Assembly (NCBI RefSeq): GCF_000328665.1
Contig: NC_019977.1
Span: 434,001-498,000, forward strand
Source of the DNA: Methanomethylovorans hollandica DSM 15978
GTDB taxonomy: Archaea; Halobacteriota; Methanosarcinia; Methanosarcinales; Methanosarcinaceae
Length of the DNA stretch: 64,000 nt
Direction of reading: 5' to 3'
Shown here piece by piece: positions 24,238 through 62,528 of this stretch (within the stretch, counting starts at the first letter, position 1; each line of letters starts with the position of its first letter). The notes below the pieces were generated by a model, which was not told the origin of the DNA, ran no database searches, and worked only from the letters and a program-made list of their open reading frames with translations. The position numbers and the translations under genes were made by a program.

Positions 24238-27012
24238 ATGCTTGAAGATGAATATCAGCTTGATTTTTTCAAGGATAACGGTTTTGTCAGGAAACAGTGT
24301 CCAAAGTGTGACAAGTTCTTCTGGACCCGGGACCTTGAAAGGGCTACATGTGGTGATGCACCCTGTGATCCCTATTCTTTCATAGGCAATCCTGTGTTCA
24401 AAAAGAGTTTCGATCTCGCAGAAATGAGGGAATATTACCTCAAATTCTTCGAGGAAAGGGGTCATGCCAGGATGGCCAGATATCCTGTAGTGGCTCGCTG
24501 GAGAGATGACATATATCTTACCATAGCATCCATTGCTGATTTCCAGCCATTTGTCACATCCGGTGAGGTTGCTCCCCCACATAATCCTCTTACTATATCT
24601 CAGCCATGCATCAGGTTGTCTGATCTGGATGCTGTAGGCAGGAGCGGCCGCCATCTTACAACCTTCGAGATGATGGCTCATCATGCATTCAACAAGCCGA
24701 ATGCTGAGATCTATTGGAAAGACAGGACAGTGGGACTTTGTGATGAACTGTTAAATTCTCTGGGAGTGGATCCCATGGCGGTCACATACAAGGAAGAACC
24801 ATGGGCAGGAGGAGGAAATGCTGGGCCATGTGTTGAAACTCTGGTTGGAGGCCTGGAAGTTGCCACCCTTGTGTTCATGAACTTGGAACAGGTAAAAGAC
24901 GGTCCCATCGAAATAAAAGGTGAGATGTACCACAAGATGGATAATTATATTGTAGACACGGGTTATGGTCTCGAGCGCTTTGTATGGGCTTCTAAAGGTT
25001 CTCCCACTATTTACGATGCGATATTCCCCAATATAGTTAAAGAGCTTATGGATCTTGCTGGTATAGAACATGAGCTGGAGGACCCCGAATATGCGAATAT
25101 TCTTTCTCAGAACGCCAGGCTTGCAGGGCTCATGGATGTGAGCGAAAAGGCAAACCTGATGGAACTGCGAAGGCAAGTGGCTTCCAGTATAGGGACTACA
25201 GCTGAAAAGCTTTCATCAATAATAGAACCCGTGGAATCGGTATATGCTATCACTGACCACAGCAGATGCCTTACTTTTATGCTTGGAGATGGCATAATCC
25301 CTTCCAATGTAAAGGCAGGATATCTGGCGAGGCTGGTGCTCAGAAGAACACTCCGTATGATGAAGGATCTCAATATTTCGATCCCTCTCAGTGAGATCGT
25401 ACAAATGCATATCAAGAACCTGCCGGAGTACCCGGAATTCGCAGAAAGGTTCGAAGTGATTGAAGATATTCTCCATCATGAAGAGATAAAGTTCCAGGAA
25501 ACACTGGAACGCGGCAGGAGGATGATCAGTAAATCTGCCAAGCATTACAAGCAGGCAGGGGAAAAGATGCCTCTTGAGAAGATCATCGAGATGTATGATA
25601 CCCATGGCATCCCACCTGAAATCTCGAAAGATGCTGCTGCTGAGGAAGGGGTACAAGTCGATCTCCCGGATAATTTCTATTCCCTGGTAGCAGAAAGGCA
25701 TAGCAAAGCAGAGGAAAAAGAAGAAAAGGTATTCCCTTATGCAGACCGTATATCCCGTCTGCCCCCTACCCGGAAATTATTCTATGATGAGCCTAACAGG
25801 ATGGATTTCGAGGCTGTAGTGCTTGATCTATTCGATAATTACATTGTTTGTGACAGCACTCTTTTCTACCCGGAGGGCGGTGGGCAGCCTGCAGACCATG
25901 GCACCTTTGCCATTGAAGATGTGCTGCTTGATGTAGTGGATGTGCAGGTGGTAAAAGGTGTGGTAGTGCATCGGATAGATGCTATGGACAAAGAACTGCA
26001 TTTACGCAAGGGCGATATTGTAACGGGCAGAGTGAATAAAGAACGTCGCATGGCACATGCATCCCATCACACGGCTACTCATATTGTCAATGATGCGGCC
26101 AGGAAGGTACTTGGTGAGCACATATGGCAGGCAGGTGCTCAGAAGACGGAAACCAGGGCTCGCCTTGATATCACTCATTACAAGCGTATCACAAAGGAGC
26201 AGCTTAATCAGATCGAGCTTTTGGCCAATCAGACAGTAATGGATAACCAGAGAGTTACTGCCGAATGGATGGAACGAAATCAGGCTGAACAGAAATATGG
26301 TTTTGGCCTTTATCAGGGAGGTGTTCCCAAAGGGAATATGATCCGTGTGCTGAAAGTAGCAGATGACATAGAAGCATGTGCCGGAACCCATTGTAGTAGC
26401 ACCGGTCTTGTAGGGCCCATTAAGATCCTGAAGACAGAACGCATCCAGGATGGTGTGGAGCGTATCGAGTATGCTGCCGGCATGGCAGCTGTCAGGGCCA
26501 TACAGGAAGCAGACTACTATCTGACCACTGCCTCTGAGGCATTACGAGTACTTCCGGAACAGCTTCCTGTAACCATCGACCGCTTTTTCAATGAATGGAA
26601 AGAGTTCAAGAAAGAGAATATAAGGCTAAAAGAGGATATGGCCCAGTTGCGTGTGGCAAGGATGCTTATTCAGGCCCTCGATCTGGGAGGTGTGAGGCTA
26701 ATTGCACAGAATGTGGATCATGCCGATACCGATGAACTGGTCAAGATTGCCGGTGAGCTAACTCAGGAAGATGACGTTATAGCTCTCCTTATCAGTGATC
26801 TTGAGGGCGTGAAGATAGTTGCTGCTGCAGGTAAAAAAGCGATTGCAACGGGTGCAGATGCAGGAAAGGTCGTACGTGAAATGTCTCGGATAGTAGGAGG
26901 CGGTGGCGGAGGGAGGCCGGACATGGCTCGTGGTGGCGGTGTTGATTCCTCAAAAGCTGCAGAGGCCATGGAAAAAGGTATCTCCATGGTCAAAGCTTCT
27001 CTTAATGTTTAA
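24238..27012 (+). CDS. alaS: Alanyl-tRNA synthetase, archaeal type
   Basis: A 924-residue AlaRS with the archaeal N-terminal zinc-finger-like extension (CPKCDKFFW...CGDAPCDP), a class II catalytic core (FQPFVTSGEVAPPHNPL), the editing domain with zinc ligands HASHHTATHI and CAGTHC, and a C-terminal glycine-rich GGGGGGRPDMA segment of the DHHA1 domain. It charges tRNA-Ala and clears Ser and Gly mischarging. ATG 24238 has no clear ribosome binding site; a TATA-like GTTTTTAAGC lies near 24174. A hairpin terminator follows it. Confidence 0.97.
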   Translation: MLEDEYQLDFFKDNGFVRKQCPKCDKFFWTRDLERATCGDAPCDPYSFIGNPVFKKSFDLAEMREYYLKFFEERGHARMARYPVVARWRDDIYLTIASIADFQPFVTSGEVAPPHNPLTISQPCIRLSDLDAVGRSGRHLTTFEMMAHHAFNKPNAEIYWKDRTVGLCDELLNSLGVDPMAVTYKEEPWAGGGNAGPCVETLVGGLEVATLVFMNLEQVKDGPIEIKGEMYHKMDNYIVDTGYGLERFVWASKGSPTIYDAIFPNIVKELMDLAGIEHELEDPEYANILSQNARLAGLMDVSEKANLMELRRQVASSIGTTAEKLSSIIEPVESVYAITDHSRCLTFMLGDGIIPSNVKAGYLARLVLRRTLRMMKDLNISIPLSEIVQMHIKNLPEYPEFAERFEVIEDILHHEEIKFQETLERGRRMISKSAKHYKQAGEKMPLEKIIEMYDTHGIPPEISKDAAAEEGVQVDLPDNFYSLVAERHSKAEEKEEKVFPYADRISRLPPTRKLFYDEPNRMDFEAVVLDLFDNYIVCDSTLFYPEGGGQPADHGTFAIEDVLLDVVDVQVVKGVVVHRIDAMDKELHLRKGDIVTGRVNKERRMAHASHHTATHIVNDAARKVLGEHIWQAGAQKTETRARLDITHYKRITKEQLNQIELLANQTVMDNQRVTAEWMERNQAEQKYGFGLYQGGVPKGNMIRVLKVADDIEACAGTHCSSTGLVGPIKILKTERIQDGVERIEYAAGMAAVRAIQEADYYLTTASEALRVLPEQLPVTIDRFFNEWKEFKKENIRLKEDMAQLRVARMLIQALDLGGVRLIAQNVDHADTDELVKIAGELTQEDDVIALLISDLEGVKIVAAAGKKAIATGADAGKVVREMSRIVGGGGGGRPDMARGGGVDSSKAAEAMEKGISMVKASLNV

Positions 27013-27024
27013 CATTGAGTGACA

Positions 27025-27055
27025 AGGTGGTAGAGTTCTCCTATCACCTATTTTT
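27025..27055 (+). terminator. Hairpin terminator after alaS
   Basis: AGGTGGTAG (27025-27033) pairs with CTATCACCT (27041-27049), nine pairs including one G-U, around a 7-nt loop. ATTTTT follows directly. It lies 12 nt after the alaS stop codon and looks like an intrinsic terminator. Confidence 0.6.
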
Positions 27056-27502
27056 ACAGTAACTCGTAGCTATAGTACTATTACAATGTTCTTCTGGAAA
27101 CCCATTTAAAGTGAATAAAAAAGTACTTCCTTTGTTCTTCTCGCATTATATGGGGAAAAGAGAGTGTTCAAATTTCTTCCTATTATTTCCTCTTTCATTA
27201 AACCAGGGCGGGGTAGTTCACTTAGCTCCTCAAATCCTTATTTAAACACTTTTTTCTTTGGAAGGGAGAATATTATTCACTACTTATGGGGTCAGGATAC
27301 GCACTGCATCGCTGATCATATATCTAATGTTGTTTTGCCCGACATCCCAGCATTCACTGGAAAGCATACTTTGTATTATATTTATAGTTTATCTTTTCAA
27401 TGATAATTTTAATTTTATTTTTATATTATATGGCTGGGCAGAGTACCAAAGTTTAATATGATAACAAAACAAATAATTATTAATTTATTGTATAAGGTCA
27501 AT
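27056..27502. other. Intergenic region before the KaiC-like/receiver gene
   Basis: About 450 nt, AT-rich, with no convincing gene. TATA-like elements near 27380-27395 and 27415-27433 could drive the downstream gene with a leader of 50-100 nt. Short open frames here (for example 27164-27403) have no ribosome binding site and no protein-like pattern. Confidence 0.4.
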
Positions 27503-28561
27503 ATGATGAATGCAGGCGAAACATACGACATAGTTCATGATTTAAGGGCAGGTCTCAGATCAAAAACTGTTCTGTTTCTGGCTCCTGTAGATGTTCCTGT
27601 AGGACGTATTGTTTATTTTTACGTGTCTGATCTGTTACAAAGTGATCCTCAACAAAAAGTTGTCTGGCTTTGCCTGAAAACTCCCTCAAATAAAGTGCTA
27701 AGAATGTTCCAGGAATACAAATACGAAATAGATCCTGCACGTATCATGTTCATTGACCTGCTTCCTGCGGGGACAGAACCACATGATGATATCCTGTATT
27801 TCTCTTCACCCTCTGACCATACCAAGATAGCCTCGCATGTATCACAACTCTTTGATAAGTTCCCAGGCTCTCTTCTAGTGATCGATAGCATGACAGTGTT
27901 AGGCACTGATAACATGCAGGTCGTGGAAAGTTTTATCAATTTCATCAGCACAAAGGTTTCTGAAAAGAACGGTTCTATTACTGCGATATTAGGCAAGGAT
28001 ACTCTCAAAGTTGAATCAGAAGCTCTTATTAAGTCTTTCTTTGAGATAATCGTGGAGCTTACGAACATAGGCGAGATCCATACCGAGATTGGAATGAAAA
28101 CTCTAGATGCACGGTTCCAGGTTGAAGATGGAAAATTATCTTTTGAATATATTCAGAAAAAGTTAAAGAGAGGTCGTCTGAAGATCCTTATTGTGGACGA
28201 TGAACCAGACATATCTGATCTTCTGCGACTGTCACTTTCTAATCAGCCCTATGATTTTGTAGTGGCATATAATGGGCAGCAAGCCATCGAAGCTACATTG
28301 AGGGAGCGTCCTGATCTGATCCTCCTTGATATAATGATGCCGGATATGGACGGATATGAAGTTGTTGAACACTTAAAGCAGAGCGCAACGTCTGCTAATA
28401 TCCCGGTGATAATGATCTCTGCAAAGACCGCCATAGAGGACAAGGTGCGCGGCATGGAATTAGGCATCGATGATTACATTGCCAAACCTTTTGATAAGCG
28501 TGAGGTCAATGCCAGAATTCGGATGGTTATGCGCCGTTTTGGATGGATCGAAGAAGAGTGA
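27503..28561 (+). CDS. Degenerate KaiC/RecA-like domain fused to a response-regulator receiver
   Basis: A 352-residue fusion. Residues ~10-220 follow the KaiC/ArlH core pattern (strand, helix, Walker B-like SLLVIDSM at 123-130) but the Walker A loop is replaced by APVDVPVGRIVYF, so ATP binding is doubtful. Residues ~224-350 are a full receiver domain: acidic pair D232-D233, phosphoacceptor D276 in LLDIMMPDMDG, S306, and K328 in AKPF. No output DNA-binding domain is present. AAGGTC just upstream favours ATG 27503 or 27506 over an upstream in-frame start. It lies 1.3 kb before the archaellum operon, separated by a convergent methyltransferase gene. It could connect histidine-kinase signals to motility or another KaiC-like partner; that is inference. 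Confidence 0.85.
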   Translation: MMNAGETYDIVHDLRAGLRSKTVLFLAPVDVPVGRIVYFYVSDLLQSDPQQKVVWLCLKTPSNKVLRMFQEYKYEIDPARIMFIDLLPAGTEPHDDILYFSSPSDHTKIASHVSQLFDKFPGSLLVIDSMTVLGTDNMQVVESFINFISTKVSEKNGSITAILGKDTLKVESEALIKSFFEIIVELTNIGEIHTEIGMKTLDARFQVEDGKLSFEYIQKKLKRGRLKILIVDDEPDISDLLRLSLSNQPYDFVVAYNGQQAIEATLRERPDLILLDIMMPDMDGYEVVEHLKQSATSANIPVIMISAKTAIEDKVRGMELGIDDYIAKPFDKREVNARIRMVMRRFGWIEEE

Positions 28562-28649: not shown

Positions 28650-29738
28650 TCAGATCTTCTCGCAGATGTACGCTATGCTTTCTCTTGCAAAGAGATTTAT
28701 TTTCTTTTCCCCATTAAGGTTCTTTTCCAGCCTGTTACGAATGTCCCAATACATAGCTGGATCTACTTCGGTCCTGAGTAATACTTTACCATATCCTCGC
28801 TTTTTAAGTTCCCTATTTATAGCTTCAGGGACGAACTCTGTATTGAACACTATTCTATAGGTATTCTTTATCAGGGGATGGTCCATGACAGTATTTGAGG
28901 TCAGCATCAACCGTTTGTTATCTATTCGGAATATTTCGGCTTTATCCTTCAACTCTTTTATAAGTTCAGGAAGTAATTTCGCTTTTATCACAGCTGGGTC
29001 TGGTTCATACAGGTAATTTCCAGGTTTGCTTACATTGATCATCTCTGTCTCTTCAGGAGGTTCTGTTTTCCTGCACATTTTTGTAGGTCCCGGCAAGCCA
29101 AGTGCAGATATGGTACAAGTTTTGAGATCTCCGAAATACAGATTCAATCGATTAAGTTCTCCGTCCAGGGACAGGTATTCGAGTTCACAGTCAAAGGATA
29201 TTCTTTCTGGGGGTAACTGCGGAGGTGCCTCAAAAGCAAAGTTTCTTGTATTTCCTGAATATGCTGCCAGTACATCAGGTATGTGAGGAGTCAGATTATC
29301 TATGTCACGCTCCTTCTCTGCCGCGGCTCTTGCGGGGTCGGAGAATACAATATCCACTGCGGGTATCTGTTCTATTACATCATCTGAGAGCGCATCCCCA
29401 CAAATGAATTCTACATTGTTCAGTCCAAAAAGCTTGCAGTTCTTTCTGGCAAGCTCAAGTTTAGCAGGATCAATTTCAATGGCGTAGACTCTTTCGCATT
29501 CTCTTGCAAAATATACTGTTTGCCCTCCTATGCCACAACTAATATCCGCAAGGCTGGAACACTTGAGCCTTTTTGCTCTATATGCGGCTACTGGCCATGG
29601 TGTTGCAAAACGCAAACCATCGTCATCAGAATATAACTGCTTTTCAAAATTCTTTCTTCTTGTCACCAGGATCAAATCACTAAATGCATCAATACATTTA
29701 AACCGATCCGTCTGAAAATCAATGAAAATGAAAAGCAC
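28650..29738 (-). CDS. Class I SAM-dependent methyltransferase with THUMP-like C-terminal domain
   Basis: A 362-residue protein. The SAM-binding site LADISCGIGGQTVYFA, the EIDPAKLELARKN strand and the catalytic-type VFSDPARA motif define a Rossmann methyltransferase; a C-terminal region (YRIVFNTEF ... GYGKVLLRTEV) resembles the THUMP-like domain of related bacterial and archaeal proteins. The target is probably RNA but not known. The only start in the expected range is GTG 29738, without an obvious ribosome binding site. It converges with the KaiC-like/receiver gene and diverges from arlCDE. Confidence 0.78.
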   Translation of the reverse strand: MLFIFIDFQTDRFKCIDAFSDLILVTRRKNFEKQLYSDDDGLRFATPWPVAAYRAKRLKCSSLADISCGIGGQTVYFARECERVYAIEIDPAKLELARKNCKLFGLNNVEFICGDALSDDVIEQIPAVDIVFSDPARAAAEKERDIDNLTPHIPDVLAAYSGNTRNFAFEAPPQLPPERISFDCELEYLSLDGELNRLNLYFGDLKTCTISALGLPGPTKMCRKTEPPEETEMINVSKPGNYLYEPDPAVIKAKLLPELIKELKDKAEIFRIDNKRLMLTSNTVMDHPLIKNTYRIVFNTEFVPEAINRELKKRGYGKVLLRTEVDPAMYWDIRNRLEKNLNGEKKINLFARESIAYICEKI

Positions 29739-29850: not shown

Positions 29851-31143
29851 ATGTCAGGGCTTGGTGACAAGATCAAGAACATACGTTCTCTTCTGAAAAA
29901 AGGAGGAAAAAATAGATCGATCAATTCTCCTTTTAGTGGTAACTCTGATCCTTTTTCCAGTGCCCCCCCAGGTTTTGGACTGGCACCTGATATTTCAGCT
30001 GGAATGTCTTTTTCTCCGGGTGTCCCATCTCCTCCTGGTATGCCTGCAGGTCTCTCCTTTCCTCCTAAGTCTGGCCAGGTAAATCCATCAGGTATTTTCC
30101 CTCTGGGAATGCAGTCTCCGGCAGAGAAACCATCAGTTGATGCTGCAGCACTGGAGGCTAATAACAAGAAAATAAAAGAGATAGAAGGCAAAATAGCAAA
30201 ATCAGAAGTTAGCCTTTCAATGCTGCAGAAGGAAAATGAAGAAGTAGGTAAAACAGTGGCAAAGATGGATAAAAACATCCTTGAATTGCTATCTTTATAT
30301 GAGATCGTTTCAAATCAGGTGAACCCTTTTGTAGGTGATGATACTGGCAGCAGGGCAACATTAGAAAGATTCGACAAGACTGAAAAAAGGATCAATGAAG
30401 TAGGCAATATGCTTGTGATGCTAAAGAATGACCTCGATTCTTTCTCACAGCGCATAAGTTCTTCAGGGTCTACAGACTCAGTTGGTGAAAAGCTACAGGA
30501 TATGGAAACAAAGTTCGATGCTTTTGCTGATGCAATGGCTATGATGCATGAGAGCATCAATAACCTTTCTGCACGAACCGAGGAACTAAGTGACAAAAAT
30601 ATTATCGTAGATACTAGCATCCTTGAACTCTCAGAAACTATCAGCAAGATCTCCCTCAGAGTTGAAGATATAGAAAAAAATGGGGCTAAAACGCTAAAAA
30701 ATCAGGCATCTACCCCTACATGTTCAGAGCATACTCTTCCAGAAAATTCAGACATAACCGGTCAGGAGAAATTCAAAGAGATGAATTCTCTTGTAAGACT
30801 TGATGTCATACGCCAAGATCCTACAAGCGTTGTTGTGCTCCTCAACTGGATAGAATTCCTGATGGAAAGGGTGGGGCGAAATAACCTGATGGACGCCCTT
30901 GATTACTATGTTGATATTGGCTGGATCAGTGATAATGTACGGTCCGAGATCATGGCCTATGCAAGGGGGATCGACTATTACGTTGAGAAACCTACCTGGC
31001 GCCTTCTCCCAGAGGACCATACGAAATCCCTGCTGTTCATTGAGAGGCTATGTGGCCGCAAGATAGACAAGAACATGCTGAGTAGCATTGATAGGGAGAT
31101 GTCAAAGGTCAAGCATGGACTGGAGGAACTTTATGGGCTTTGA
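29851..31143 (+). CDS. arlCE: Archaellum cytosolic-ring protein ArlCDE (FlaC/D/E)
   Basis: A 430-residue protein. After a short basic N-terminus comes a Pro/Gly/Ser-rich linker (residues ~30-95), then coiled coil (~100-300) and the conserved FlaD/E domain (~315-430) with LLNWIEFLMERVGRNNL, GWIS and TWRLLPEDHTKSLLFIERL. In euryarchaea ArlC/D/E form the ring around the ArlH/ArlI motor and receive chemotaxis signals from CheF. This is the first gene of the arl operon; the following arlF ATG lies inside its end. A second, much longer paralogue lies at 60.1 kb. Confidence 0.9.
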   Translation: MSGLGDKIKNIRSLLKKGGKNRSINSPFSGNSDPFSSAPPGFGLAPDISAGMSFSPGVPSPPGMPAGLSFPPKSGQVNPSGIFPLGMQSPAEKPSVDAAALEANNKKIKEIEGKIAKSEVSLSMLQKENEEVGKTVAKMDKNILELLSLYEIVSNQVNPFVGDDTGSRATLERFDKTEKRINEVGNMLVMLKNDLDSFSQRISSSGSTDSVGEKLQDMETKFDAFADAMAMMHESINNLSARTEELSDKNIIVDTSILELSETISKISLRVEDIEKNGAKTLKNQASTPTCSEHTLPENSDITGQEKFKEMNSLVRLDVIRQDPTSVVVLLNWIEFLMERVGRNNLMDALDYYVDIGWISDNVRSEIMAYARGIDYYVEKPTWRLLPEDHTKSLLFIERLCGRKIDKNMLSSIDREMSKVKHGLEELYGL

Positions 31144-31564
31144 GATATCGGCAGTAGTGGCCATCTTTTTTGTGTCTGTCATGGTCATAGCCGCCATGTC
31201 ATATACAACTATCAGTTCTTCCAATGAGTTGCTTTCGGTTTCTACTGACGAGCACTACTCACTTGTCAATAAGAAACTACAGACAGATATACAAATTGTT
31301 GATTCAAGTGCTATAATCCACAATTCAACTTACCAGCTGTCTCTGGAGGTTCTCAATACAGGCAGTGAAACTTTGAGATCGGATGAGATAGATATACTGG
31401 TAGATGGTGTTTATATGTATCATTCAACTTCAAGTGCCACAGTCATATGGACCCCAGAAACTTCAGTGGTCTTGAACATCTACGATCTATCAGGTTTTGG
31501 CGGCCACAGATTAAAAGTGGTGACTGAGAATGGGATATGTGATTATTATTCTTATAACATTTGA
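31133..31564 (+). CDS. arlF: Archaellum stator protein ArlF
   Basis: A 143-residue protein: a single N-terminal transmembrane segment (MGFEISAVVAIFFVSVMVIAAMS) without a typical class III signal, followed by a beta-rich extracellular domain with NTGSETL and ILVDGVYM. This matches ArlF, which binds the S-layer outside the membrane and forms the stator with ArlG. ATG 31133 overlaps the ArlCDE end by 11 nt; the upstream frame extension is not expected to be translated. The FlaF-type assignment versus FlaG rests on the MGFE/VSA start. Confidence 0.85.
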   Translation: MGFEISAVVAIFFVSVMVIAAMSYTTISSSNELLSVSTDEHYSLVNKKLQTDIQIVDSSAIIHNSTYQLSLEVLNTGSETLRSDEIDILVDGVYMYHSTSSATVIWTPETSVVLNIYDLSGFGGHRLKVVTENGICDYYSYNI

Positions 31565-31617
31565 GCACCTTGTTTTAGGAATTAATATATACTAATAATT
31601 ATATATTATTTTTCAGT

Positions 31618-32151
31618 ATGGTCGATCTTCCCAAAGTTGACAGAAAAGTACTCACTACAGGGCAATTTAGCAAGTTATTTGCAGACGTTACAGGTGAAAC
31701 TGCTATTACTCATATGATATTCTTCATAGCAGCTGTTGTCATAGCCATGGGAGTTGTTGCTGTGCTTTCCGTCAACATCCAGTCGCTTACGGGAGCTACA
31801 CATTCAGAAAGTAAGGTCCTATCCGATCAGATTCGCACAGATATTACGATAATAAATGACCCGGAAATAGTACCTTACGACAGTTTCGGAAAACGTTATA
31901 CCTTTTATGCAAAGAACACAGGAAGTTCAGAGCTTAATACAGAGTTTATTACCGTCCTGGTGGATGGAATGCTCATAGAGCCTGCGGATATGCAGGTCAG
32001 CATAATAGACGGGGACGTCTTATGGCGTCCAGGGAATGTGCTGGTTGTCAATGTAACAATGTCATTGTCTCTTGGTCCCGGAGATCATCGTGTTATGATA
32101 GCTGCTGAAAATGGAAAGAGTGGCTACATGAGCTTTAAAACAAGAACGTGA
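31618..32151 (+). CDS. arlG: Archaellum stator protein ArlG
   Basis: A 177-residue protein with a transmembrane segment near residues 29-55 containing TAITHMIFFIAAVVIAMGVV, a very typical ArlG signature, followed by a beta-sandwich extracellular part (YAKNTGSSELN, ITVLVDGML). ArlF and ArlG together form the S-layer-anchored stator. It has about 35 extra residues before the membrane segment, unlike the usual short N-terminus. A TATA-like stretch lies at 31585-31607, so an internal promoter is possible. Confidence 0.88.
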   Translation: MVDLPKVDRKVLTTGQFSKLFADVTGETAITHMIFFIAAVVIAMGVVAVLSVNIQSLTGATHSESKVLSDQIRTDITIINDPEIVPYDSFGKRYTFYAKNTGSSELNTEFITVLVDGMLIEPADMQVSIIDGDVLWRPGNVLVVNVTMSLSLGPGDHRVMIAAENGKSGYMSFKTRT

Positions 32152-32160
32152 GGTGTACAT

Positions 32161-32856
32161 TTGGCAGATGTTTATTCATTCAGTATTACAAGAGACGAGT
32201 TCAATGACAAGCTGGGGGGAGGTTTTCCATCGGGTTCATTTGTCGTGATAGAAGGTGGTAGCGGAGGGGGAAAAAGTACCATTACCCAGCGTCTGACATA
32301 TGGGTTTATAGAGAACAAGACCAGTGTAACTCTGGTCTCTACACAGCTTACTACCAAAGGATTCATAAACCAGATGTATTCTCTTGATTATCCTATTGCT
32401 CCTTATCTTCTGAACGGGACCCTGCTCTACATACCCGTCATTCCTCTTGTTCAGGCTGCGAAATCCAGGCTGGACTTTGTTGAAAGACTGATGAGCGCAG
32501 AAGAACTCTTCGATAAAGATGTGATCATAATAGACACAATATCATCTCTTATCAAATACAGCGCAAATATTGAAAAAAGCCTGGACCTTATTTCCTTTTT
32601 CAAGAAACTGAATGGCATAGGCAAAGTGATCATTCTGACAATAGAACCCAGCCAGCTCAGTGAAGAAATAACTTCCATGTTCAGGTCAAGTTGTGATATA
32701 TATATCACGCTGAAGTCCAGACCCATGGCCAATGAGGTCAAGAGAACTGTAGTTGTCAATAAGTTCACTGGTGCTAAGGGGCCTGTAGGACAGATCATAG
32801 GTTTCAGGATCGAACCCAAAGTTGGTCTGGTAGTGGAGATAGCTTCTGTTTCATGA
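32161..32856 (+). CDS. arlH: Archaellum KaiC-like ATP-binding protein ArlH
   Basis: A 231-residue RecA/KaiC-fold protein. It has a Walker A loop GGSGGGKST, the QLTTKGF segment, a Walker B-like DKDVIIIDTISS and a C-terminal NKFTGAKGPVGQIIGFRIEPKVGL. ArlH is a regulatory ATP-binding hexamer that docks on ArlI inside the ArlCDE ring. It starts with TTG 32161 behind a clear GAGGTG ribosome binding site, 9 nt after arlG. Confidence 0.93.
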   Translation: MADVYSFSITRDEFNDKLGGGFPSGSFVVIEGGSGGGKSTITQRLTYGFIENKTSVTLVSTQLTTKGFINQMYSLDYPIAPYLLNGTLLYIPVIPLVQAAKSRLDFVERLMSAEELFDKDVIIIDTISSLIKYSANIEKSLDLISFFKKLNGIGKVIILTIEPSQLSEEITSMFRSSCDIYITLKSRPMANEVKRTVVVNKFTGAKGPVGQIIGFRIEPKVGLVVEIASVS

Positions 32857-32873
32857 TATAGGAGGTTATATGA

Positions 32874-34532
32874 ATGGATGCTGATTTCCAGAAAGCTATA
32901 CAAAGGAATCCTCATCTTGGTGAGTATATAGATAAATTCAAGAAAGAAAAAGGTCAGGATGCAGAGCCGCAGTTTCTTGTAAGTCTTTCAAAGGACATTG
33001 AAAGTGATAATATCAATATCATCCTTCCTGTGGGGGATCCTATATTCATCCACATTTATGGAACTCCTGAAATGGGTGAAATAAAATACTATGCCATAGA
33101 ACCCGGTCTTTCGGAGAAAGAAAAGAAGAAATATGATATTATCATGAGCCTTATCCTGGAAAAATCTGCACAGGAGCCGATACCACAATCAGAAACGGAG
33201 CTTAAAGAACTGATCACTAAACTATTGAACAGCTCAATAGAAGTGGGTGTGGGAGGCGATCTCAAAGATGGGAAGCAAGGGCCAGGTGTTATTCAAAAAC
33301 TTATTCCGGTGAAGAAAAAAGTAGCATTGAACCAACAGGAGTATAATAAAATCCTTTATTATATTGAAAGGAATATCATTGGTTCAGGTCCCATCGAACC
33401 TATTATCAGGGATCCGTATCTTGAGGATATCCACAGCATAGGTGTAAGTGGTGTTTTTATTGTTCACAAGATATTCGGTATGCTTCAGACAGATATCACT
33501 TTTGGGGATGAGGCAGGTCTTGATAGCTGGTTGCGCAGTATGAGTGAACGGATAGGCCGACCTGTAAGCGATGCTCGTCCTATTGCTGACGGTGCCCTTC
33601 CGGATGGTTCGCGTATTAACATCATCTACAGTCCGGATATCAGCCGCAGAGGCAGCAGTTTCACAATGCGTAAGTTCATGGAAGTCCCTGTGAGCGTTGT
33701 CCAGCTCATAAAATGGGGTGCTCTCAGTGCCGAGATGGCAGCTTATATGTGGATATGTCTGGAGAACGGGCAAAGTATTTTCTTCAGTGGTGAAACAGCA
33801 AGTGGTAAGACCACAATGCTGAATGCATGTCTATGTTTTGTAAATCCTAAAGCTAAGATCTACACGGCAGAAGATACGGCAGAAGTGCAGCCCCCACAGC
33901 CTGTATGGCAACAGCTGATCACACGTGAGGATGGTCCCGTGGATTCCAGGGTAGACACTTTTGTACTGCTGAAAGCTGCGCTGCGTTCAAGGCCTAACTA
34001 TATCATAGTAGGTGAGATCCGTGGGGTGGAAGGAGCAGTAGCTTTCCAGGGTATGCAGACCGGACACCCTGTGATGGCAACTTTTCATGCATCAGCAGTG
34101 AGCAAGATGATACAGCGTCTTACAGGTGATCCCATAAATGTACCTGTAACCTTCATTGATAACCTTAATGTTGCTATGATCCTTTCTGCAGTGTACAGGA
34201 AAGGTAAATTCCTTAGGCGTTGCCTTGCTATTGAGGAGCTGGAAGGATATTATAAAGAAGCTGGTGGTGTGGTCACTAGGGCTGTTTTCCAATGGGACCC
34301 CGAGACTGACAGACACAATTTCAGAGGCCTTAACAACAGCTTTATTCTGGAAAACAGAATAGCCGTCAAATTGGGTTATGATGACAAGCGCAAGATATAC
34401 CAGGATCTGTTCTTACGTGCAAGGATATTGAATGAAATGCGCTCCAGGGGCATAGAGGAATATTATGAGGTACTGGACTTGATAATCAATTTCTATAAAC
34501 ATGGCATTGAAGGATTGCCGTTCTCAGTATAA
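32874..34532 (+). CDS. arlI: Archaellum motor ATPase ArlI
   Basis: A 552-residue type IV secretion/pilus ATPase. The N-terminal domain leads to IRDPYLEDIHSIGV; the core has Walker A GETASGKTT, the Asp box, Walker B-type IIVGEIRGVEGAVAFQ with the catalytic Glu, and the His box GHPVMATFHA. It powers both assembly and rotation of the archaellum. GGAGGT precedes ATG 32874. It is followed closely by arlJ. Confidence 0.95.
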   Translation: MDADFQKAIQRNPHLGEYIDKFKKEKGQDAEPQFLVSLSKDIESDNINIILPVGDPIFIHIYGTPEMGEIKYYAIEPGLSEKEKKKYDIIMSLILEKSAQEPIPQSETELKELITKLLNSSIEVGVGGDLKDGKQGPGVIQKLIPVKKKVALNQQEYNKILYYIERNIIGSGPIEPIIRDPYLEDIHSIGVSGVFIVHKIFGMLQTDITFGDEAGLDSWLRSMSERIGRPVSDARPIADGALPDGSRINIIYSPDISRRGSSFTMRKFMEVPVSVVQLIKWGALSAEMAAYMWICLENGQSIFFSGETASGKTTMLNACLCFVNPKAKIYTAEDTAEVQPPQPVWQQLITREDGPVDSRVDTFVLLKAALRSRPNYIIVGEIRGVEGAVAFQGMQTGHPVMATFHASAVSKMIQRLTGDPINVPVTFIDNLNVAMILSAVYRKGKFLRRCLAIEELEGYYKEAGGVVTRAVFQWDPETDRHNFRGLNNSFILENRIAVKLGYDDKRKIYQDLFLRARILNEMRSRGIEEYYEVLDLIINFYKHGIEGLPFSV

Positions 34533-34543
34533 AGGTGTGTGTG

Positions 34544-36196
34544 ATGTACAGTAAGGCGTTTAATTGCATGGACACGGAACCGGCAACTTATTTAAAAAGG
34601 TTTGCCATACCGATCATTGCATTTGGTTTTATATTTTCTTTTTTACTTTATACTGCCCTTCCCAGTTTATTTCAGGGGAGTACAAAGGCTATTCCTATTC
34701 TGATCCCCGTAATTTGCATACTCTTTGCAGTGTATTATCCTCTTTCTATCTATGGGGGCCAGGCATCACGCATTGATAACAATATGCATTACTATATCAC
34801 TCAAATGGGTTCTATCGCAACCGCTGAAACTTCAAGACTTGATATAATAAGGATAGTTTCCGAAAACGAGGAGTACAAGGAGTTAGCCACGGAAACAAAA
34901 AAGATCTACAACCTTGTTACTGTGTGGAACATGAGCCTTGCGGAAGCATGCAGGTTCATCTCCAAAAGAACCCCTTCTGTAATATTCGAGGACTTTCTCG
35001 ATAGATTAGCCCACGGATTACAGTCAGGAGAAAATATAAAAACATTTCTTTTTGCAGAGCAGAATGTTGTAATGAATGAATATGAGTCCATGTACAACAG
35101 TGCTATGTACAATGTTGAAATAATCAAGGAACTCTTCGTTTCCCTTGTAATGTCTCTCATATTCCTTGCTTCTTTTGCTGTCATCATGCCCGTGATAACA
35201 GGCATGGATGCTGTACTTCTCATGTCAATGGTGGTAGCAACGTTCATAGTAACGGATGTTGTCATCCTTTTGTTTACAAAAGGCAAGGTACCAAAGGACC
35301 CTCTGTGGAGCAGTTCTCGTATCATCCCGGATTATAAGATAAAGTTATACCGCTCGATACCGATCTCGATAGGTGCTTGTATTATAATTACCATTATAGT
35401 CATAATTTACGGAAAAATTATCACACCCATTGCCATTGCACTTTGCTTAACTCCTCTAATGTACACAGGAAAGGTATGTCGTAAGATCGAAAAGAGCATC
35501 CGACGCAGGGATGAAAATTTTCCTGCTTTTATAAGGTCTCTTGGAAGCTCGGCAGGTGCCAGAGGTGGAGTGATAGATGAGGCTTTGAAAGCATTACGTA
35601 TCCATGACTTTGGTCCTCTTACCAAGGATGTGAACGAATTGTATAAGAGACTTAACACAAGGATAGATAAGTTCAAATCATGGGAATTCTTTTCAGCAAA
35701 TACGGGCAGTCATCTTATCCAGAGATTCTGCGTTATGTTCGTTGAGGCAACTAACCTTGGAGGCAAACCTGAGATAATAGGTGACATCATAGCTGCGAAT
35801 TTCCACAGGATAGTAACTCTTAGGAAAAAGAGGGTGCAGTCTGCCTCAAGCCTTGTAGGGGTCCTTTACGGTCTTACTGCTGGAATCGGTTTTACAATGT
35901 ATATCTCTTTGGGTGTGATCGACCTGATGCAGAGCATGTTCTCCAGTGTGGAAATGCCTGCAGGGATGTCCATGGGCATGATTCTCTATACAAATGTAGG
36001 GGACATAGAAGTCCTTTCAATGATGGTGCTCTTGATTATGATAGCACATTCCCTGATGTCTGCCATCCTTATCCGAGTGGTGGACGGAGGTCATATACTC
36101 AGTTCTACCATCGATTTTGTGATAATGGTGTGGATATCAGGAATCACAGCTATGGTCACCAGGACTGCGATCTGGTCTCTCCTGGGTATGGGCTGA
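34544..36196 (+). CDS. arlJ: Archaellum membrane platform protein ArlJ
   Basis: A 550-residue polytopic membrane protein of the TadC/GspF superfamily. There are two N-terminal hydrophobic segments, a cytoplasmic loop with the positively charged region, three central membrane segments (~185-290), a second cytoplasmic domain (FPAFIRSLGSSAGARGG) and further C-terminal membrane segments. It is the membrane anchor of the ArlI motor. AAGGTG at 34532-34537 selects ATG 34544 over in-frame GTGs at 34535 and 34541. It ends the operon, converging on the leuB-like gene with a 25-nt gap. Confidence 0.93.
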   Translation: MYSKAFNCMDTEPATYLKRFAIPIIAFGFIFSFLLYTALPSLFQGSTKAIPILIPVICILFAVYYPLSIYGGQASRIDNNMHYYITQMGSIATAETSRLDIIRIVSENEEYKELATETKKIYNLVTVWNMSLAEACRFISKRTPSVIFEDFLDRLAHGLQSGENIKTFLFAEQNVVMNEYESMYNSAMYNVEIIKELFVSLVMSLIFLASFAVIMPVITGMDAVLLMSMVVATFIVTDVVILLFTKGKVPKDPLWSSSRIIPDYKIKLYRSIPISIGACIIITIIVIIYGKIITPIAIALCLTPLMYTGKVCRKIEKSIRRRDENFPAFIRSLGSSAGARGGVIDEALKALRIHDFGPLTKDVNELYKRLNTRIDKFKSWEFFSANTGSHLIQRFCVMFVEATNLGGKPEIIGDIIAANFHRIVTLRKKRVQSASSLVGVLYGLTAGIGFTMYISLGVIDLMQSMFSSVEMPAGMSMGMILYTNVGDIEVLSMMVLLIMIAHSLMSAILIRVVDGGHILSSTIDFVIMVWISGITAMVTRTAIWSLLGMG

Positions 36197-36221: not shown

Positions 36222-37220
36222 TCAGCCAATAAGTTGTTTAACGCGCTCTGCTATTGTGTTTCCTACTTCTCTTGTTGTGGATATGCCTCCCAGATCAGGT
36301 GTGACTATGTTCTGGTTTATAGCAAATTCTATGGCATCCTGTACCAGTTTTGCCTGGTGGTTCAATTCATACCACTCCAGCATCATTTTCAGGCTTAGGA
36401 TAGCAGCTATGGGGTTAGCTATGCCTTTTCCGGCAATATCGGGTGCACTTCCGTGTACAGGCTCAAAGAACGCATGTCCTTTGCCAATATTCGCACTTGG
36501 TACCAGTCCAAGTCCCCCGACCAGGGCAGCAGCCATATCGCTAAGTATATCCCCGAACAGGTTAGTGGTCACTACGACATCGTACCTGTTAGGGTGTACG
36601 ATAAGGTTGTAAGCCATGGAATCTACTAGGGTGTCGTGGTGATCTATGTGATATGAAGAGGCTGTCTGACGACATACGTCCAGGAACAACCTATCAGATT
36701 TAAGCACATTGGACTTATGGGCTATTTCCAGGCGATGCTGCCTGCTTTTGGCAAGTTTGCAGGCATAATCGGCTATCCTTGCAGACCCTTTGCGGGTAAT
36801 TACCCTTTTAGTGTATGCAACGTCTTCATGGAGCTCCTCTATGCCGGAATACATGCCCTCTGTGTTCTCCCTCACGATCACCAGGTTAAAATCACTTCGC
36901 CCTGTGACACCCACAATGCCATTTATGGGCTTTATAGGACGAATGTTAGCGTACATATCAAGCTCCTTTCGTATTGTAAGGAGTACACTCTTATAAGTAG
37001 GGTCAGAAGGTGTTGTTATAGCCCCAAATAAGATGCAATCGCACTCCTTCAGGACTGCAAGGTCATCATCGGTGATAGCAGAGCCTGTCTTTTCCCATTT
37101 TGCATATCCGAGTTCCACAGGTACTTTTTCCACAGGCAGGGCGAGTACATCCAGTACTTCTATCGCTGCAGGTATGACCTCTTTGCCGATCCCATCTCCT
37201 TCCACAACTGCAATTTTCAT
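36222..37220 (-). CDS. leuB: Isopropylmalate/homoisocitrate dehydrogenase family enzyme (LeuB/AksF)
   Basis: A 332-residue NAD-dependent beta-decarboxylating dehydrogenase: EGDGIGKEVIP at the start, LRKELDMYANIRPIKP-type substrate loop (here TIRKELDMYANIRP), RENTEGMYSG, the AHKSNVLK segment, NLFGDILSDMAA and the NAD motif EPVHGSAPDIAGKGIANP. It could serve leucine synthesis (3-isopropylmalate) or coenzyme B synthesis (homoisocitrate and longer homologues). The hydrophobic residues before the RK pair look isopropylmalate-like, but the partner small subunit carries a homoaconitase motif. GGTGATGATC precedes the ATG; the start overlaps the upstream gene by 4 nt. Confidence 0.88.
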   Translation of the reverse strand: MKIAVVEGDGIGKEVIPAAIEVLDVLALPVEKVPVELGYAKWEKTGSAITDDDLAVLKECDCILFGAITTPSDPTYKSVLLTIRKELDMYANIRPIKPINGIVGVTGRSDFNLVIVRENTEGMYSGIEELHEDVAYTKRVITRKGSARIADYACKLAKSRQHRLEIAHKSNVLKSDRLFLDVCRQTASSYHIDHHDTLVDSMAYNLIVHPNRYDVVVTTNLFGDILSDMAAALVGGLGLVPSANIGKGHAFFEPVHGSAPDIAGKGIANPIAAILSLKMMLEWYELNHQAKLVQDAIEFAINQNIVTPDLGGISTTREVGNTIAERVKQLIG

Positions 37221-60065: not shown

Positions 60066-62528
60066 ATGAGCACATTTCCATGGGAACAGACAGGCAAGAA
60101 GAAGGAAGAGGAACCGGACGGTGCTACAAATGCTGCACCGGGCACACCACCATTTGCTGCCGGTGCTCCGATCTCAGACCTTTTCCAGAAAGCTTTTTCG
60201 GAACCGGTCATACAGGAGACAAGTATTGCCTTTCCTGAAAAAAGCTTACCCTCCAAACTTTCTGTAGTATCTTATCCTTTGTTTTCCATGGAAATACCGG
60301 ATCTATCTTCTCTTGGGTCTAAACAGGAAGTTCCAGGGGGTCCAACGCCTCCTTTCATATTTAACGGAAAAGAGGGATCTTTACCTATCTTTTTATCTAA
60401 GAAGCCTCCAATGGCATTTCCGGGTGCTCCCGCAACTGAGGTAAAGGATACTCCAAAGGTACAGACAACCAGTAAAAGACAACTACCCGTCTTTGAAATG
60501 GTATTGCCCGAAGATGGCACCAACGTTGGTGATCCGCTACCTGCTCCTGTGAAACCTGGGATCAATGCCACAGATATTTCAATATTTCCTGTTCCAGGTC
60601 CAAATTTAAGTGGTCCAGGTCCTTTTAGTTTTACGGCATCCCCACAGCCTGCTGAAAATGATACATTTTCTCCGTCCTCGCCATTTTGCCTATTTGTGCC
60701 ACCACTTCAACCTGCTGCTATTGCAGGTTCAGATGATCCTTCTTCAGCAGATCCATTCTCTGCTTCCCATGATCCTTTCGCTCAGGGTATTCCCCCATCC
60801 GCTGCTGACCCTTTTGCAGGCCAGATCAATCTTTCTAGTGCCGTCCCCGGTCCATCGGGTCTAGCTCCTTTTCCGTTTTCCGGGCCGAACCCTTTGTTTT
60901 CAGGTGGCTCTACCCCCAGTTATATGAACACAGTACCAGGGAAAAAGCCAGGTATAGGCGGAAAGATGGTTGATGTACCCGGAAAACTGGCAACGAGTAT
61001 AAGTGAGCTGGCAAATTCCATTGTTGTCAATGTTCGGAACCTTACTAAAGGTAAAAGTCTGCTGGATAAAATGGAGAAAATAAAGGAAGGCAATATTTTC
61101 GAAGAGGACCATTCTCTACAATCGCCTGATGCTTCTGTATATGAAAGAGGGAGGCAGGCAAGAGGCAATGCATTGTCCATTGTTTCAAATAACTCTCCTT
61201 TTGGTCCGGCACCTTCAGGCTTATCGTCTTTTGCACCTTCCGCAGGTGGTACTGGCTTGTCAATGCCTGCTCCACAAATCCTCCCAGATAGCTTGCCAGA
61301 TGATCATGCTATCAGTATCTCTCCGGGTGATTTTGTAAAAGTAACTCCGGTGGAGAATCCATTGTTCGATTTTCCGGAAGCGCTTAAGATCGATAATAAT
61401 TCCCAGTCACTACTTCCTGCTTACAATGATACCGCAGAGGGTACTGCAGGTATGAAGCAGCGATCGTCAGATACCCTTCATCAGCCTGAGAAAGTGGCTG
61501 AAGGGGTACCTTTCCCTGCAGCTGTGAAGAGTTCGAACGGATGCGCTCCTGCCGGGTCCAAGGAACTTGATGATATCAGAGAAAAGCTGGAATCTTCTGC
61601 AGGCAATGTCTCTCAGGTATGTGGCATGTACGAGGAGCTTTCAGGGAATATGGCTGTTCTTGGCGATTCTGTGAGGTCTCTGCAAGGTTCTTCTGATGAC
61701 ATGATGACAGCAACGTGTATGAAATTCGATAGTCTGGACGAGCGTATAGTCCGGCTGGAATCGCACCTGTTGGGTATGGAACAACAAGTGGCTCATGTTC
61801 TGTCTGAGAATCGGGATATCATGTCAAGCCTTTCCAGTATAGAGCAGCATATCTCCGAGCTTGTGGGATCTTACACGGCTCTTGTCTCTAAAATACAGGA
61901 AAATGCGCAGGAAAATGATGATCGCTTCTCTGCTTTGTCGGCTAAAGCAGGTGCAATGGAAAACCTTGTCCCGAGATTTGCGAGCATGGAGAGGTCAGGT
62001 ACGGAAGTATCTGCAACCGTACAGGATCTTCAAGGTAATGTTGCAAAGCTCGGTACTGATATTTCAAACGTTTCAGCATCACAGCAGGAGATCAGGGATG
62101 AGATGATGGAGCTATCCAAATACGCGGAGGGAGAGCTCAAAAAAATAGGTGCCAAGGGGTATAAAGTAGCAGATCAGAGCATACAGCTTGCACACATCAT
62201 GAAAAATTCCTCGAGTATCAAATTGTGTATGGAATGGCTTGAGTTTCTTATGGAACTAGTAGGGCGTAATAATCTGCCTGATATTCTCTCTTACTATGAG
62301 GAGTTGGGCTGGATCACAGAGGAAGCACGTATGGAACTCATGAGATATGCTGAAGGCATCGATTTCTATATGGAGAAACCGGACTGGAAGCTTAATCCCG
62401 ACGACCATGTAAAATCCGTCTGGTTCATTGAGAACCTTGCAGGGATCAAAGTGGACAAGAATAAACTGTCCGTTATTGACCGGGATATTGAAAAAGTCCG
62501 CAAGGGCTCAGAGATATATAATATTTGA
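60066..62528 (+). CDS. Very long ArlCDE (FlaD/E-domain) protein with proline-rich N-terminus
   Basis: An 820-residue protein. Residues ~1-330 and ~370-520 are low-complexity, rich in Pro, Ser, Phe and Gly (DPFS, SADPF and PSGLAPFPFSG-like blocks); ~520-700 is coiled coil; the last ~120 residues are a FlaD/E domain clearly related to the ArlCDE of the arl operon, sharing WLEFLMELVGRNNLPD, LGWI, EGIDFYMEKPDWKL and a final DRDIEKVRKGSEIY. It is about twice the operon copy's length and stands apart from other arl genes, with its own promoter. It may form or decorate the cytosolic motor ring; the disordered N-terminus could bind other proteins. Confidence 0.85.
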   Translation: MSTFPWEQTGKKKEEEPDGATNAAPGTPPFAAGAPISDLFQKAFSEPVIQETSIAFPEKSLPSKLSVVSYPLFSMEIPDLSSLGSKQEVPGGPTPPFIFNGKEGSLPIFLSKKPPMAFPGAPATEVKDTPKVQTTSKRQLPVFEMVLPEDGTNVGDPLPAPVKPGINATDISIFPVPGPNLSGPGPFSFTASPQPAENDTFSPSSPFCLFVPPLQPAAIAGSDDPSSADPFSASHDPFAQGIPPSAADPFAGQINLSSAVPGPSGLAPFPFSGPNPLFSGGSTPSYMNTVPGKKPGIGGKMVDVPGKLATSISELANSIVVNVRNLTKGKSLLDKMEKIKEGNIFEEDHSLQSPDASVYERGRQARGNALSIVSNNSPFGPAPSGLSSFAPSAGGTGLSMPAPQILPDSLPDDHAISISPGDFVKVTPVENPLFDFPEALKIDNNSQSLLPAYNDTAEGTAGMKQRSSDTLHQPEKVAEGVPFPAAVKSSNGCAPAGSKELDDIREKLESSAGNVSQVCGMYEELSGNMAVLGDSVRSLQGSSDDMMTATCMKFDSLDERIVRLESHLLGMEQQVAHVLSENRDIMSSLSSIEQHISELVGSYTALVSKIQENAQENDDRFSALSAKAGAMENLVPRFASMERSGTEVSATVQDLQGNVAKLGTDISNVSASQQEIRDEMMELSKYAEGELKKIGAKGYKVADQSIQLAHIMKNSSSIKLCMEWLEFLMELVGRNNLPDILSYYEELGWITEEARMELMRYAEGIDFYMEKPDWKLNPDDHVKSVWFIENLAGIKVDKNKLSVIDRDIEKVRKGSEIYNI

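Follow-up and report, generated by a model that had tools for sequence, protein, structure and literature searches.

Among archaeal KaiC-like proteins, the closest described system is the iKaiC-REC architecture, an inactivated KaiC domain followed by a C-terminal receiver. In the available part of the survey by Galperin et al. (2018) it comprises nine proteins of the Methanosarcinaceae, distributed over six genera including Methanomethylovorans, with ABE53050/Q12U26 as the reference case (PMC5847659, Table 2, section vii). DUF835 is likewise marked iKaiC in that part of the survey, the domain order there being REC-DUF835, and KaiC-like archaeal proteins are mentioned as having been proposed to act as hubs of signalling (PMC5847659, citing Makarova 2017). 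As far as the available text of the survey goes, the string "archaell" has zero occurrences, and neither gene neighbours nor a mechanism nor a link to the archaellum are given for iKaiC-REC (PMC5847659). Concerning motility, the Methanosarcina che2 system was described, in the accessible part of the report, as lacking CheF, its link to motility being left open (Schlesner et al., 2009; PMC2666748), and a 2026 paper on Haloferax CsmR, also available in part, discusses the KaiC-like CirA in the control of motility (PMC13286277). A literature search retrieved "KaiC-REC" from no paper besides Galperin et al. (2018), and no KaiC-like protein tied to a cognate kinase. The architecture is thus already known, as it is listed in that survey; the neighbourhood of ATPase, kinase and receiver genes and the comparison of lineages that lost the arl (archaellum) genes, both reported below, are new additions to it.

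The window analysed here, a stretch of 64,000 nucleotides from Methanomethylovorans hollandica DSM 15978, carries a gene whose product is very probably one of the nine proteins counted by Galperin et al. (2018). The open reading frame is real, its existence beyond chance being supported by the 65 genomes that hold close homologs of its N-terminal domain. Its parts are as follows.

27503..28561, + strand: iKaiC-REC protein, 352 aa (ORF translation, Pfam, orthologue alignments)
27503..28156, + strand: N-terminal domain of KaiC/RecA fold spanning residues 1-218, Walker A absent (AlphaFold2 model, Foldseek/VIA, residue counts)
27584-27607, + strand: expected Walker A loop, residues 28-35 (alignment)
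28178..28540, + strand: receiver, residues 226-346, PhoB/OmpR class (Pfam, receiver comparisons, residue counts)
28328-28330, + strand: phospho-acceptor D276 (alignment)

The longest frame (27458-28561, 367 aa) offers an alternative upstream ATG at 27458; the start codon at 27503 (ATGATG) matches the start of most orthologues in the alignments. Pfam places Response_reg in the 352-aa protein at residues 228-339 (E 1.3e-30); over residues 1-200 it reports only DUF7090 and DUF835, both weak and sub-threshold. DUF835 also appears as a weak match in 10 of the 28 relatives of the N-terminal domain that were scanned, all matches of the window domain lying below the cut-offs. A stand-alone DUF7504/DUF7090 KaiC-like protein encoded elsewhere in the window genome (L066, 1722-2429) is a distant paralogue of this domain. 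The full-length AlphaFold2 model, computed with 21 orthologues, reached a mean pLDDT of 83.8 and a pTM of 0.59, so that the relative position of the two domains in it is not reliable.

The N-terminal domain was modelled alone because the full-length fold comparison was filled by receivers; with 28 relatives, this model attained a pLDDT of 92.4 and a pTM of 0.90. Its top solved match in Foldseek is FlaH/ArlH of Sulfolobus (4yds, E 9.5e-10), followed by PH0284 and KaiC, and these matches make the term "KaiC/ArlH-like" of the preliminary description correct at the level of the fold. In VIA-align the model was superimposed on PH0284 (Z 19.7, rmsd 2.9, 207 aligned), KaiC (Z 18.6, rmsd 2.9, 195 aligned), SSO2452 (Z 18.5, rmsd 2.7, 194 aligned), Elp456 (Z 18.1, rmsd 2.5, 191 aligned) and FlaH (Z 17.8, rmsd 3.2, 196 aligned), scores that mostly lie close together and thus leave the domain without one outstanding structural relative. 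Profile searches against solved structures gave weak sequence matches to SSO2452 (E 0.0016), FlaH (0.019) and KaiC (0.039). The loss of Walker A, previously noticed in the window protein, extends to all 21 orthologues in the alignment, where position 28 is occupied by P (20) or Q (1) and the lysine expected at position 34 is replaced by E (17), G (2), S (1) or R (1). The Walker B aspartate, Asp128, is conserved in 20 of the 21. The domain is, as judged from these residues and the model, an ATPase-dead KaiC fold, and the retention of the fold without Walker A suggests that, like other pseudo-subunits in rings of the RecA fold, it serves for structure or docking.

The receiver retains all the catalytic residues, in agreement with the preliminary description: D232, D233, D276 and K328 are invariant in 21 of 21 orthologues and position 306 holds S (19) or T (2). 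Its nearest solved relatives are OmpR/PhoB-class receivers (E 7e-34), the top NCBIfam match is PhoB, over the receiver part only, and identity amounts to 41-46% with the PhoB, VicR and PhoP matches vs 21-24% with E. coli CheY; by its sequence the domain belongs to the PhoB/OmpR class. Receivers of the PhoB class dimerise via the alpha4-beta5-alpha5 face. Five further residues, K314, D323, D324, E334 and R338, which we take to form this dimer face, are invariant in the 21 orthologues, and a PhoB-like dimer face is therefore a putative feature of iKaiC-REC, judged from residue conservation and from other receivers of the class. The winged-helix DNA-binding output was not found by Pfam or in the AlphaFold2 model, the N-terminal domain being KaiC-like and no domain following the receiver. 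Pfam, the fold model, the structure matches and the residue counts thus bear out the reading of the protein as a dead KaiC/ArlH-like domain fused to a receiver.

The N-terminal domain was searched in 185 genomes of the Methanosarcinales. Matches at E <= 0.001 occur in 109 of them and strong matches (E <= 1e-40) in 65, every one of which belongs to the 111 Methanosarcinaceae genomes of the set; a contig profile scan retrieved 24 loci, each named as Methanosarcinaceae. Forty-six of the 111 lack the protein, and no match of any grade was detected in the putative Methanosarcina genomes (g13) within the set searched. Estimates of dN/dS were 0.03-0.14 in 12 of 13 orthologue pairs with defined dS (dS was saturated in one pair) and 0.05-0.09 across 10 further pairs of the window species and its sisters, values that indicate a gene under purifying selection. 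Outside this family architecture, stand-alone dead-KaiC relatives (L085-L096) adjoin genes for a ParA/MinD-like ATPase and a winged-helix protein at 12 of 12 loci, 11 of them from other families of the order, and at two loci (L103, L104) such a relative is followed by a P-loop-bearing KaiC. In one genome a dead KaiC relative is located after a CheA-CheW-REC hybrid, CheB and a REC-PAS gene (L093, 1176-6978), and in L094 one comes after kinase and receiver genes. In the window genome the only match to ParA is distant (E 8e-10), hence the ParA/MinD island does not explain the window.

The genes surrounding iKaiC-REC differ among genera on its upstream side, where the window contains the following.

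24238..27012, + strand: alaS, the conserved upstream neighbour
27084..27276 (approximate), - strand: collapsed remnant (~190 bp) of a divergent histidine kinase (co-linear blocks vs L039, translated remnants with a stop)

alaS lies upstream of iKaiC-REC at all 39 loci having sequence there. In 27 of 27 Methanolobus genomes (g11) a gene for a GvpD/KaiC-like ATPase of 446 aa, with matches to the GvpD P-loop and KaiC domains, ends about 0.1 kb upstream of iKaiC-REC on the same strand. This ATPase was found in 33 of the 111 family genomes and all 33 also carry iKaiC-REC; it is absent from 32 of the 65 protein-bearing genomes, including M. hollandica and its five congeners, and cannot therefore be a universal partner. 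A histidine kinase gene (HisKA and HATPase) is divergent to iKaiC-REC at three loci of the Methanomethylovorans group (L039, L040 and L042; g1), and at two others (L054, L076) a related kinase together with a phosphonate-type binding protein fills the same divergent place; among the loci read, kinase adjacency is confined to g1, g2 and g14. A stand-alone receiver gene directly follows iKaiC-REC at 19 of the 24 loci L039-L062; counted by genome, it does so in 16 of the 52 examined, and most of the g7 and g10 genomes examined have a copy 50-66% identical located elsewhere.

Based on this evidence, a mechanism can be proposed that has about an even chance of being correct, namely that iKaiC-REC is a response regulator of the PhoB class in which the dead KaiC domain serves as the output, relaying the signal of a kinase to a KaiC-family ATPase. 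A sensor histidine kinase would phosphorylate D276, either without an intermediate or with a relay or sink provided by the second receiver, and the phosphorylated receiver would dimerise via its alpha4-beta5-alpha5 face, as in PhoB-class receivers; the pseudo-KaiC domains thus paired would dock on, cap or join the ring of a KaiC-family ATPase and alter its output. In Methanolobus the GvpD/KaiC-like ATPase encoded upstream would be the obvious target. In the window species the phosphate would come from another kinase and the protein would act on another KaiC-family protein. The most specific form of the proposal, in which a two-component system speaks directly to a KaiC ATPase through a phosphorylated pseudo-KaiC dimer that caps or joins a GvpD/KaiC-type ring, is put forward only tentatively. 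The co-location of ATPase, kinase and receiver genes with iKaiC-REC may be incidental, as is argued below for the arl genes.

The first competing explanation is that iKaiC-REC regulates the archaellum, the phosphorylated protein binding ArlH (or ArlCDE) and controlling assembly, rotation or switching. The preliminary description had placed the gene close to the archaellum operon, and this is indeed the case: iKaiC-REC is located two genes upstream of arl, which begins about 1.3 kb downstream, with one opposite-strand methyltransferase gene intervening.

28650..29738, - strand: methyltransferase gene between iKaiC-REC and arl, a conserved neighbour (Pfam)
29851..36196, + strand: arl operon, linked in many loci yet separable (Pfam)
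29851-31143, + strand: ArlCDE-like (Pfam)
31130-31564 and 31618-32151, + strand: archaellin-family F/G, presumably (domain and order)
32161-32856, + strand: ArlH, intact, a separate gene (Pfam)
32874-34532, + strand: ArlI, presumably (domain and order)
34535-36196, + strand: ArlJ, presumably (domain and order)
36222..37220, - strand: leuB, bounding arl on its distal side and adjoined by the ArlJ stubs found in relatives without arl (Pfam, locus comparison)

Arl genes occur within the downstream flank at 25 of 41 loci (23 of 24 in L039-L062, two of 17 in L067-L082 and L084). When the protein (E <= 1e-40) and the ArlDE domain (E <= 1e-8) were tallied over the 111 family genomes without regard to phylogeny, five weaker ArlDE rows (4.6e-5 to 5.5e-4) being scored as lacking a type-1 operon, the protein was present in 65 and type-1 ArlDE in 61: both in 59, the protein only in six, arl only in two and neither in 44. 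This correlation is inherited by descent, which confounds it as an argument for the archaellum and gives more weight to the exceptions. The top Foldseek match, FlaH/ArlH, also favours an archaellum role, as does the fact that most genomes with both arl and the protein have no CheF match, which calls for some different connection to the motor. In the same window, a second ArlDE domain (E 1.7e-27) stands at the C-terminus of an 820-aa protein (60066-62528, + strand) with a long Pro/Ser-rich, apparently disordered N-terminus and a coiled coil; such long second ArlDE proteins recur in many family genomes, and the product may serve in anchoring or as a second protein of the switch complex.

The exceptions argue against the archaellum as the sole purpose of the protein. 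The six genomes with the protein only (G075, G096, G105, G108, G112 and G179) represent four genera, and iKaiC-REC is intact in all of them; the G108 assembly is a single contig and G075 is 76% complete. A search for ArlH gave no match at E <= 1e-6 in five of the six and one distant match (9.8e-7) in G075. In G105, G108 and G096 a 3' ArlJ stub beside leuB is the sole arl remnant, at the place where the relatives G106 and G109 have intact arl; in G179 and G075 leuB adjoins the iKaiC-REC region with no arl between, and in G112 no arl scar was located. The stubs of G105 and G108 have one common junction and so count for at most one event, and as the G105 gene is nearer to that of arl-bearing G109 than to that of G108, a single loss, an exchange and a regain are indistinguishable in these genomes. 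The reverse case is provided by G145 (98% complete), in which alaS, the methyltransferase gene and arlF to arlJ follow in order and the iKaiC-REC gene is missing. The second genome with arl only, G146 (g12), which has no strong protein match, carries no weight, being only 72% complete with an alaS match spanning 630 of 924 aa. In pairs that include an arl-less genome dN/dS was 0.10 for G105-G108 (54 synonymous, 23 non-synonymous changes) and 0.03 for G096-G091 (34 and four), although some of this divergence may be older than the arl loss; four arl-bearing g10 pairs gave 0.09-0.14.

Further, the arl genes were not in the flank of the g7 and g10 genomes examined, the profile of the local ArlH family aligned with that of the N-terminal domain at a negligible probability (hhalign 2.2, E 0.022, 91 columns), and KaiC and PH0284 fit its model as well as FlaH does. 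Regulation of the archaellum is thus unlikely, although it is the alternative that survives best. An archaellum-only function is unlikely, since arl was lost with the protein kept and G145 keeps arl without the gene. On the same grounds, ArlH as an obligate partner was rejected as the main reading; the arl genes are probably old chromosomal neighbours. The preliminary description had envisaged phosphorylation-dependent binding to ArlH or to another KaiC hexamer and had regarded presence in many arl-less genomes as contrary evidence. Of the 65 protein-bearing genomes 59 have arl, and the six without it, not "many" but spread over several lineages, supply that contrary evidence in part; the archaellum-specific half of the idea is weakened by the losses, and the half that invoked another KaiC gains support from the ATPase upstream in Methanolobus.

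Next in order, and improbable, comes the explanation that in the window species the protein is an orphan or relaxing remnant, on its way out or a mere phosphate sink. The upstream region contains a scar of the kinase: three co-linear blocks at 27022-27276, 83-87% identical to L039, run from the intergenic stretch behind alaS into the kinase, and a fourth block (80% identical) extends over the beginning of the kinase gene and the sequence between it and iKaiC-REC, the kinase itself being disrupted by large deletions and a stop codon. Searches of the window genome found neither an orthologue of the GvpD/KaiC-like ATPase nor a close orthologue of the stand-alone second receiver. The ratio dN/dS, 0.09 between the window gene and L039, is slightly higher in pairs that include the window species (0.07-0.09) than among sister pairs (0.05-0.07). 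Against decay stand the open frame, the complete set of catalytic residues and dN/dS below 0.1. With the adjacent kinase, the ATPase and the second receiver missing, the window protein would need another kinase and another KaiC-family target, for which ArlH is a possible candidate.

A stand-in for CheY and CheF, receiving its phosphate from CheA and touching the archaellum switch directly through the fused domain, is very unlikely. In the window genome CheA and neighbouring receiver genes are present (C2, ~1424694-1427312), as is CheW, and no match to CheF (PF04283) was obtained genome-wide; of the 29 genomes that do have a CheF match, 21 are without iKaiC-REC. Nevertheless, the receiver is of the PhoB class and far from E. 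coli CheY, many genomes with the protein and arl have no CheW match, and the protein persists in genomes without arl. The Methanosarcina che2 system lacks CheF according to the accessible part of its description (PMC2666748), yet the putative Methanosarcina genomes are without iKaiC-REC. The PF04283 search could overlook a more divergent CheF. Partial matches were obtained in Methanolobus (E 2e-6 to 4e-6), and the one that was read (L123, 2844-6513) is no plain CheF: the protein, 401 aa long, begins like CheF and has a winged-helix-like match, and its gene is grouped with a PAS-PAS-DUF835 gene and one for a KaiC ATPase. Finally, a partnership with alanyl-tRNA synthetase or translation, suggested by the constant alaS linkage and a gap of just about 0.1 kb at the Methanohalobium and putative Methanohalophilus loci, is hardly credible, as other genes intervene at the g1, g2, g11 and g14 loci and the protein is missing from 46 of the 111 family genomes, alaS being present in all eight of the genomes in which it was sought, the majority of which have no iKaiC-REC.

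Compared with an archaellum-only function, a module of kinase, pseudo-KaiC-receiver and KaiC ATPase is better supported, and iKaiC-REC more probably serves in signalling than in the motor. If the module is as proposed, a phosphorylation-gated pseudo-subunit would connect bacterial-type signalling with the archaeal KaiC hub. Concrete candidate partners emerge from the neighbourhoods in Methanolobus and in further genera, including several isolates. Since arl and the gene itself have each been lost in nature, the archaellum is unlikely to be the only purpose of the protein.

Regarding known systems, the window protein shares domain order and family with the iKaiC-REC proteins of Galperin et al. 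(2018), and their restriction to the Methanosarcinaceae is matched by the confinement of all 65 strong hits to this family. Other archaeal inactive KaiC-like domains (DUF835, DUF7090 and DUF7504) resemble its N-terminal domain through weak Pfam matches below the cut-offs; in the case of DUF835 the domain order given in the available part of the survey, REC-DUF835, is reversed in iKaiC-REC (PMC5847659). ArlH (FlaH) has the KaiC fold in common and is the top Foldseek match; in contrast to iKaiC-REC, which is encoded outside the arl operon and has no P-loop, ArlH lies within the operon and keeps the P-loop, its Walker A residues being invariant in nine ArlH sequences. Active KaiC/RecA ATPases have the Walker B aspartate D128 in common with iKaiC-REC and differ in possessing Walker A. 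The PhoB/OmpR-class regulators are similar in receiver sequence and in the conserved alpha4-beta5-alpha5 residues, whereas iKaiC-REC has no DNA-binding domain and its pseudo-KaiC output precedes the receiver. The Elongator subunits Elp4/5/6 form a RecA-like ring that can be used as a mechanistic analogue: the ring is built of RecA-fold subunits on which the N-terminal model superimposes well, but it belongs to a eukaryotic tRNA-modification complex and has no receiver.
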